This document shows, in pieces, positions 8,114-10,138 of a stretch of 34,939 nucleotides of DNA (the first letter of the stretch is position 1; every line of letters starts with the position of its first letter). The position numbers and the translations under genes were made by a program. The notes under the pieces are model-generated. The model searched no databases, was not told where the DNA came from, and was given only the letters and a program-made list of their open reading frames with translations. This DNA is from Hyphomicrobiales bacterium. Lineage in GTDB: Bacteria > Pseudomonadota > Alphaproteobacteria > Rhizobiales > Aestuariivirgaceae. Location of the stretch: assembly GCA_027051195.1 (NCBI GenBank), contig JALUAB010000223.1, positions 1-34,939 of the forward strand, written 5' to 3'.

Positions 8114-9484
8114 ATGAACGCCAAATCCGTCTTCTGGCACGTTGCCCGAAGGGGCTGGTGGAACGCGCCGGCATTGCTGTTGCTGGCCGTGATGCTGGCG
8201 CTGGCGCCCGCCGCACGGGGACAGGAGGCCGGCATGGCCCGGCCGGAGGTGCGCATCGGCGTGCTGGCCTTTCGTGGAGAAGACCACGCCCGCAGACAGT
8301 GGGAGGGCCTGGTGCGCTGGCTCAACCGCAGCCTTCCGCAGCGCCGGTTTCGGCTGGTTGCCGTCACGCTCGATTCCGCCGGCGGCATGCTGGCGCGCGG
8401 TGATGTGGATTTCCTCCTCACCAACCCCGGCCATTACGTGACGCTGGCGGAAAGATACCCCGTTTCCGTTCTGGCCACGCTGGTGCGCATCACTCCGGAC
8501 GGATACGAGGTGATGCGCTTCGGCAGCGTCATCTTCACCCGCGCCGACGCGGCCGGCATTCGCGGTCTGGCGGATGTGAAGGGACGCCGGGTGGCGGCGG
8601 TCAGCGACAAGGCCTTCGGCGGCTTTCTCGTGGGGTGGCGGGAGTTCCGCGCGCTTGGCATCGACCTGCTGGACGGCGACGTGGAGATGTATTTCACCGG
8701 CTTTCCGCAGGATCGCATCGTGCAGGCGGTGCTCGCCGGCAAGGCGGACGTGGGCATCGTGCGCACCGGCCTGCTGGAAAGCATGGCGCGCGAAAGACGG
8801 CTGGACCTGCGCAAGGTGCGCATCCTGAACCCCGTGCCACATCCGGGCTTTCCCTGGCGTACGTCCAGCCGCCTTTATCCGGAATGGCCGTTCGTCGCGC
8901 GCGATGGTGTGGACAGGATATTGGCGGAACAGGTGCTGAGCGCGCTGCTGGCCTTGCGCGCCGGCTCGCTGCGCACGGCCAATGGCCTGCGCCTTGCCTT
9001 CACCGCGCCTCTTTCCTACCGGGAAGTGAGCGCCCTGGTGCGTGAGTTCCGCCACGCGCGACAGGAGCGTGAAACCGGCAATACGCTGTTGGTGATCCTG
9101 ACCATGCTGGCCGTGGCCGCGGCCGCCTTCGCCGCCGCCTGGGCCTGGCGCAGCCGGCAGACGGAAAGAACGCTGGCCGCCGCCATTCCCGGCAGCCTGT
9201 CGAAAGAGGAACGCAAGCGCTTCACCGATCTCACCCGGCGCGAGCTGCAGGTGCTGGCCTGCCTTTGCGAGGGCCTGTCTTCCAAGGAGATCGCCCAGCG
9301 GCTGGGCATCGCGCCCAAGACGGTGGAATTCCACCGCGCGAATCTGCTGAAGAAGACGGGCTTTTCCTCCACCACGCGCATGGTTTCCGTGGCCGCCAGG
9401 CTGGGCCTGGATACTTGCCCGGGGAAAACCCGGGGAAAAACAGGTGAAGCGCCCGATGGCGCCGGAGCGCCGCCTGCCGCATGA
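8114..9484 (+). CDS. Membrane one-component regulator: PhnD-like binding domain fused to LuxR HTH
   Basis: This 456-aa protein joins a periplasmic sensor directly to a DNA-binding output. Residues 1-37 form a signal or anchor sequence (hydrophobic 18-35, then AARGQEA). Residues about 45-300 resemble PhnD/SsuA-type substrate-binding proteins: VRIGVLAFRG, GDVDFLLTNPGHYV, GLADVKGRRVAAVSDKAFGG, GFPQDRIVQAVLAGKADVGIVRTG. Residues about 324-346 form a transmembrane helix followed by Arg. Residues about 372-432 are a LuxR-type helix-turn-helix: TRRELQVLACLCEGLSSKEIAQRLG then TVEFHRANLLKKTG. There is no histidine kinase or receiver domain. Family knowledge: tetrathionate/thiosulfate sensor kinases of the TtrS type use a similar periplasmic domain and pair with LuxR-family regulators, so this looks like a fused, kinase-free version. 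The ligand is unknown. The gene next to it, on the same strand, encodes a secreted DsrE protein, the likely target. Confidence 0.88.
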   Translation: MNAKSVFWHVARRGWWNAPALLLLAVMLALAPAARGQEAGMARPEVRIGVLAFRGEDHARRQWEGLVRWLNRSLPQRRFRLVAVTLDSAGGMLARGDVDFLLTNPGHYVTLAERYPVSVLATLVRITPDGYEVMRFGSVIFTRADAAGIRGLADVKGRRVAAVSDKAFGGFLVGWREFRALGIDLLDGDVEMYFTGFPQDRIVQAVLAGKADVGIVRTGLLESMARERRLDLRKVRILNPVPHPGFPWRTSSRLYPEWPFVARDGVDRILAEQVLSALLALRAGSLRTANGLRLAFTAPLSYREVSALVREFRHARQERETGNTLLVILTMLAVAAAAFAAAWAWRSRQTERTLAAAIPGSLSKEERKRFTDLTRRELQVLACLCEGLSSKEIAQRLGIAPKTVEFHRANLLKKTGFSSTTRMVSVAARLGLDTCPGKTRGKTGEAPDGAGAPPAA

Positions 9485-9492
9485 TGCGACTC

Positions 9493-9567
9493 GCTCCGGC
9501 CTGCACCTTCCAACCCGTCAGAACAGACGGATGCGGCCCTTCCCTCTAGGCAGGCGCAGGCCGGAGC
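9493..9567 (+). promoter_or_regulatory. 12-bp perfect inverted repeat enclosing a second hairpin, upstream of the DsrE gene
   Basis: GCTCCGGCCTGC (9493-9504) is the exact reverse complement of GCAGGCCGGAGC (9556-9567). The 51-base spacer carries a smaller hairpin, CCGTC-AGAACA-GACGG. The left arm begins 8 bases after the regulator stop codon and the right arm is followed by TTTCCCC. It could be the regulator's terminator, a structured leader for the dsrE message, or paired operator sites for the upstream LuxR-type protein. The sequence alone does not decide between these. Confidence 0.6.
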
Positions 9568-9646
9568 TTTCCCCGTATCAGGAAAAGGGCCGGCCTCGCA
9601 GAAAAACCGGGGGCACAACCGGTATCTGAAAATGGGAGGAAACAAC

Positions 9647-10138
9647 ATGATCAGGAGGGGGAACGCGACAGCAGGACTGTTCATGGCCTTTGCCCTGGCG
9701 CTGATGGCCGTGGGTCTGTTTGCCGTCACGCCCATGACAAGCCTGGCGCAAGCGAGCGAACGCTATGGTAAGCAGAAGGTCGTATACCACATAAACTACA
9801 ACGGCGGAGAGAAGAACAAGCGTTACCGCGGCGCGATGCGCAACATCCAGAACCACATCAACGCCGTGGGCGCGGACAACATGGACATCAAGGTGGTGCT
9901 GCACGGCAATGGCGTGAACCTGCTGAAGGAGGCGCTGAAGGACGACGGCCTGAAGACACGCGTGACGGCGCTGAAGTCGCAGAACGTCGCCTTTCTGGTG
10001 TGCGCGAACACCCTGCGCGGCCGCAAGATCGACTACGAGAAGGACCTGTTCGACGTGTTCAAGGAGGACATCGTGCCTTCCGGCGTGGCCGAACTGGGCC
10101 GTCTGCAGCTGATGGGATACGCCTACATCAAGCCGTGA
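9647..10138 (+). CDS. Secreted DsrE-family protein
   Basis: A 163-aa protein with an N-terminal signal peptide (MIRRGN then a long hydrophobic run to about residue 30, likely cleaved after SLAQA) and a DsrE/DsrF-like alpha/beta domain: KVVYHINYNGG, DIKVVLHGNGVNLL, FLVCANTL, and the closing GVAELGRLQLMGYAYIKP. It has one cysteine, Cys119, at the position where DsrE/TusD-type proteins often carry their sulfur-binding cysteine. The track starts 5 codons earlier, but GGGAGGA sits about 6 bases before the ATG at 9647, and this start leaves a clean signal peptide. DsrE proteins handle sulfane sulfur in the cytoplasm; this one is predicted to act in the periplasm. It probably depends on the adjacent regulator. 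The exact reaction is unknown. Confidence 0.88.
   Translation: MIRRGNATAGLFMAFALALMAVGLFAVTPMTSLAQASERYGKQKVVYHINYNGGEKNKRYRGAMRNIQNHINAVGADNMDIKVVLHGNGVNLLKEALKDDGLKTRVTALKSQNVAFLVCANTLRGRKIDYEKDLFDVFKEDIVPSGVAELGRLQLMGYAYIKP

Follow-up and report, generated by a model that had tools for sequence, protein, structure and literature searches.

The window, by which we mean the whole stretch of 34,939 nucleotides analyzed here, carries a gene for a TtrS-like/LuxR-type regulator followed by dsrE, and the gap between the two holds an inverted repeat with an elaborate fold (Table 1). The regulator is 456 amino acids long and, by eye, has an apparent membrane span between its binding domain and its C-terminal helix–turn–helix (HTH) domain. 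We infer that it is a one-component membrane regulator, with both the span and the mode of action read from the protein sequence. Its periplasmic domain is matched by the NCBIfam model for TtrS at 4.7e-50, far below the family cut-off. The regulator thus shares with the TtrS/TtrR tetrathionate system a TtrS-like periplasmic domain and an HTH of the LuxR/NarL class, but it joins sensor and HTH in a single protein in which neither a kinase nor a receiver domain was found, and the neighboring gene is dsrE. The product of dsrE, a small, sulfur-related protein, has an apparent signal peptide, and its start is likely at 9647, behind a GGGAGG, rather than at 9632, a choice that follows the predicted ribosome-binding site. 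A scan of named genomes placed the same regulator directly ahead of dsrE at dozens of alphaproteobacterial loci, and our literature search found no paper on this TtrS-like/LuxR regulator–dsrE pair. At three of the loci (L071, L100 and L106), about 1.4 kb separates the sensor domain from the HTH, which gives the appearance of two proteins, a sensor and a response regulator, instead of a single fusion.

Table 1. Features of the regulator–dsrE region, in window coordinates
Feature	Position	Strand	Basis
Regulator: TtrS-like periplasmic binding domain (Phosphonate-bd, PF12974) and C-terminal LuxR-type HTH (GerE, PF00196)	8114–9484	+	Pfam, NCBIfam
Predicted operator 1, CCCGGGGAAAACCCGGGG	9418–9435	.	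Palindrome motif, 18.1 bits; within the 3′ end of the regulator gene
Predicted operator 2, AAAACAGGTGAAGCGCCCGA	9437–9456	+	15.2 bits with a 20-nt motif from loci outside the genus
Predicted −10 hexamer of the dsrE promoter, CATGAT	9480–9485	+	Operator 2 start + 43, where 43% of loci have A2 and T6
Predicted dsrE transcription start (about 1–2 bases either way)	9492	+	Operator 2 start + 55, inferred from the −10
5′ arm of the long stem	9493–9511	+	Pairing and covariation
Inner hairpin, CCGTC-AGAACA-GACGG	9515–9530	+	Pairs identical in three species; another small hairpin in G006
Invariant core, GACGGATGCGGCCCTTCCCTCTAGGC	9526–9551	+	26 nt identical in 4/4 carriers; includes a C-rich single-stranded stretch
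3′ arm of the long stem	9549–9567	+	Pairing and covariation
dsrE: exported-looking DsrE/DsrF-family protein (PF02635)	9647–10138	+	Pfam; start chosen by eye

The geometry of the repeat is as the preliminary description gave it: GCTCCGGCCTGC (9493–9504) and GCAGGCCGGAGC (9556–9567) are exact reverse complements across a 51-base spacer, the spacer contains its own hairpin of CCGTC (9515–9519) and GACGG (9526–9530), and 8 bases separate the repeat from the regulator stop codon, a TGA that ends at 9484. When mismatches are allowed, the arms reach 19 nt with 89% complementarity. By itself, a perfect 12-bp repeat is at chance level in this GC-rich window, which contains one such repeat with a spacer of 3–100 bases, the same as the average of about one in 30 dinucleotide shuffles. 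It is the comparison of four genomes, and not the repeat alone, that establishes this as a real, selected RNA element. Positions 9490–9570 fold with an energy of −43.3 kcal/mol (z −5.2). Against Rfam 15, the window has no match at the gathering score, and the element returns only sub-threshold, chance-like matches.

Besides the window, three of the ten same-genus relatives (Thermopetrobacter-like) carry the element, in one copy each (G002, G006 and G007). In all three, it follows an orthologous TtrS-like/LuxR regulator that is 65–71% identical to that of the window, and we did not find it in relatives with more distant regulators (41–49%) or without the regulator. Searching 199 genomes with the pattern GACGGATGCGGCCCTTCCCTCTAGG, three mismatches allowed, likewise returned four, with a single copy in each. 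The preliminary description had proposed a covariation analysis of the gap, with relatives lacking a conserved repeat or compensatory changes to count against it; the repeat is present in all three of these relatives and shows compensatory changes. Among the four carriers, none of the 26 core columns is variable, compared with 8 of 20 and 9 of 17 columns in the two stem arms, and six pairs of the roughly 20-bp stem show compensatory double changes. Stem cells are paired in 94.6% of cases, a figure that falls to 26–44% when the partner is slid by 1–3 columns, and the covariation score, computed from four sequences only, was reached by none of 500 shuffles. Read on the plus strand, the stem includes three G–U cells and one A–C cell, which weakly favors an RNA of that strand. 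Three species retain the inner hairpin; in G006, another takes its place.

Several functions can be set aside at this point. A terminator, one of those first proposed, finds no consistent T-run past the stem, where the four species read CTTTCCCC, CCGCCCATTTTT, CCAACTCG and CCCATTTG, and a terminator scan of the regulator–dsrE gap returned none on the plus strand. We also considered leader peptides. A 21-codon frame from the ATG at 9484 fails between species, as does one from the ATG of the core (MRPFPLG...), where the peptides diverge past the ATG. No frame is conserved through the element, being shifted by inner loops of 6, 5 and 7 nt and by a deletion in G006.

The comparison across loci also yielded a predicted operator for the regulator. 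Trained on the regulator–dsrE gaps of 35 alphaproteobacterial loci outside the genus, with the window kept out of the training set, the motif is a palindrome, CCTAGGGTATACCCTAGG, that falls in the gap or overlaps the final regulator codons. It scores at least 13 bits at 34 of the 35 loci and 10.4 bits at the remaining one, L106; longer upstream stretches yielded only the HTH helix codons. At the 38 dsrE loci that lack the regulator, the palindrome is absent (best score, 5.9 bits). In the window, operator 1 scores 18.1 bits, compared with 8.4 bits for the next best site and 14.9 bits for the best among 20 shuffles of the window, and a looser form of the pattern occurs once in its own genome, at 9418–9435. 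Because the palindrome scores there, without an equal elsewhere, we place the predicted operator within the last part of the regulator coding sequence and not in the repeat. Operator 1 is weaker in two other carriers (4.7 bits in G002 and below 3 bits in G006). Operator 2 lies downstream of operator 1, and the offset between their starts is 19 bp in all four carriers and 18–32 bp in most loci.

These scores bear on the earlier suggestion that the arms of the repeat, which are palindromic and adjoin a LuxR-type gene, are two operator half-sites for a LuxR dimer. A LuxR-type operator would present a conserved, shared half-site; the arms instead covary, differing between species yet staying complementary, and the family palindrome sits at 9418–9435 and scores below 0 at the arms. 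We consider a DNA operator formed by the two arms very improbable.

Downstream of operator 2, the loci outside the genus share a further signal. Hexamers resembling a −10 element, often TGCGACACT or TGCGTCACT, cluster 43–45 bases past the operator 2 start, and 37–43% of loci have A2 and T6 at that spacing, compared with a mean of 4.6% over all offsets. The corresponding hexamers in the four carriers are CATGAT, CATGTT, CACACT and CAGGAT. Learned outside the genus, the spacing puts the predicted transcription start within one base of where the stem begins in each of the four carriers; in the window, the start is predicted at 9492 and the stem runs from 9493. We also tried the core as the dsrE promoter and rejected it: the −10 position learned elsewhere precedes the stem, and the covarying arms would stay unexplained. 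Predicted tandem operators with a predicted extended −10, of the type seen at 9418–9456, occur at about 35 related loci (L051–L125) belonging to an uncharacterized TtrS-like/LuxR regulator family. The operator motif offers a direct route to testing what this family senses and controls.

Hairpins at the predicted 5′ end of the dsrE messenger extend beyond the four carriers. For 29 loci outside the genus, we folded each leader between its predicted start and its ribosome-binding site: the first paired base has a median position of +3, the mean z is −2.0, and z is below −1 in 22 of the 29, counts that come from related, non-independent genomes, so that their significance is overstated to some degree. 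With the same caveat, the mean z over the 33 nt ahead of the ribosome-binding site is −1.46 where the regulator is present and −0.53 where it is absent, with coding controls at about 0. Within the genus, Thermopetrobacter sp. TC1 (G003, L048 3746–3840) has in its dsrE leader a long, unrelated-looking 5′-terminal stem-loop whose sequence differs from that of the element (−47.5 kcal/mol, z −3.9), and G005 has only a weak 5′ stem (z −0.7). The element is most likely a lineage-specific, elaborate form of a 5′ leader hairpin common to many regulator–dsrE loci.

As a whole, we consider it probable, if far from certain, that the element is a plus-strand stem-loop at the 5′ terminus of the dsrE messenger that most likely slows its decay; the start and the stabilization are both predictions. 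The membrane-bound TtrS-like/LuxR regulator would bind the tandem operator at 9418–9456, within the end of its own gene, and would act at the promoter with its −10 at about 9480–9485. The transcript would begin at about 9492, and its first 76 or so nucleotides would fold into a stem of about 20 bp capped by a small hairpin and the invariant C-rich loop. With the 5′ end closed in a duplex, removal of the 5′ pyrophosphate and entry of RNase E would most likely be hindered, and the dsrE messenger would be longer-lived as a result. We propose stabilization as the most likely function because the place and the stability of the stem fit that role; the ribosome-binding site shares no strong conserved structure with the stem.

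Protection of a messenger from decay by a stem-loop at its 5′ terminus is established, with ompA as an example (Emory 1992; Arnold 1998; as cited in PMC7509114 and PMC3997798). By its folding energy (−43.3 kcal/mol, z −5.2) and its covariation, the element is a stable stem-loop, as are those of the ompA type. As in the leaders of Escherichia coli ompA and papA and Bacillus subtilis aprE, it stands at or near the 5′ end, here a predicted one, and well upstream of the ribosome-binding site. It differs from them in that the stem is longer (about 20 bp) and covaries between species, in that stabilization is here a prediction, and in its invariant 26-nt core, which simple stabilizers do not need. 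This core, the retention of the element in G006 with no dsrE downstream, the weak 5′ stem of G005, the small number of carriers (four) and the low operator 1 scores in G002 and G006 count against our reading.

The G006 locus (L028 1505–1745) deserves a closer look. There, a terminator-like hairpin and dnaN come after the regulator and the element in place of dsrE, and the 26-nt core is still identical. No close dsrE was found in the G006 assembly, which is 84% complete. From about 60 bases past the element, the sequence directly ahead of dnaN matches the dnaN region of G002, so a rearrangement or an assembly join lies within those roughly 60 bases. In view of this retention and the invariance of the core, the RNA may have a function of its own, either as a 3′-untranslated region (UTR) element of the regulator or as a small RNA.

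On the first of these possibilities, the element would form the 3′ end of the regulator messenger, with a stem that protects or ends the transcript and a core bound by a protein or an RNA. It does start 8 bases past the regulator stop, is present only behind close orthologs of the regulator, and in G006 remains with the regulator where dsrE is missing downstream. This placement leaves unaccounted for, however, the fixed distance of the stem from operator 2 and the predicted −10 in four species while the distance to the stop codon varies, and in dsrE leaders elsewhere, too, a hairpin sits at the predicted start. We regard a 3′-UTR element as unlikely.

Alternatively, the dsrE promoter could give rise to the element as a small regulatory RNA or a precursor of one, which would use the invariant C-rich loop, CCCUUCCCUCU, against the ribosome-binding sites of other messengers. 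Small RNAs of the alphaproteobacterial CcsR/cuckoo type expose a C-rich loop in a hairpin, as this element does, and are multi-copy. The core is invariant as well as C-rich, and in G006 the terminator-like hairpin within about 50 nt of the element would give a short RNA of about 130 nt. Unlike the CcsR/cuckoo type, the element is single copy, has a different motif and has no Rfam match at the cut-off. In addition, the window shows no terminator of the G006 kind after the element, and pairing of the loop with the ribosome-binding site of dsrE, the sole target compared, reaches up to 7 bp, no better than shuffles (in the window, the region before 9632 was used). A small RNA therefore also has a low probability in our view. 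In a related and still tentative proposal, to which we give a modest chance, the C-rich core would be the active part of a lineage-specific RNA, within the dsrE leader or released from it, that binds a specific protein or RNA partner and functions even where dsrE is missing, as G006 suggests.

The remaining alternative is a riboswitch or attenuator, in which the core would sense a ligand or protein and the stem would switch with another structure controlling dsrE. An invariant core with a covarying stem is typical of RNAs that bind ligands or proteins. Against a switch, the element occurs in four genomes only, the alternative pairings of the arms are within the shuffle range in three of the four species, the upstream arm of G006 reaching z −2.05, and we saw neither a terminator nor any obvious sequestration of the ribosome-binding site, which together make such a switch quite improbable. 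In the window, the competing pairings that we tried were 9461–9469 with 9492–9500 and 9558–9573 with 9581–9596. Of the attenuator-like leader proposed in the preliminary description, the leader holds up, as the repeat falls at the predicted +1 of dsrE, and the attenuator does not.

What looked like a terminator or an operator could thus become part of a unit in which an uncharacterized membrane regulator, a predicted tandem operator, an extended −10 and a hairpin-led messenger belong together, a unit kept across many alphaproteobacteria. If the stabilizing role is true, a 5′ hairpin has been kept across genera despite sequence change, with one lineage adding a fixed core. In G003, a second hairpin, AACCGCC...GGCGGTTTTC, follows the long 5′-terminal stem-loop and precedes the ribosome-binding site. 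In the dsrE leaders of L051, L052, L057, L071 and L100, GGAGG or GGGAGG often falls in a hairpin loop or arm, an arrangement that resembles a ribosome-binding site set within a hairpin.
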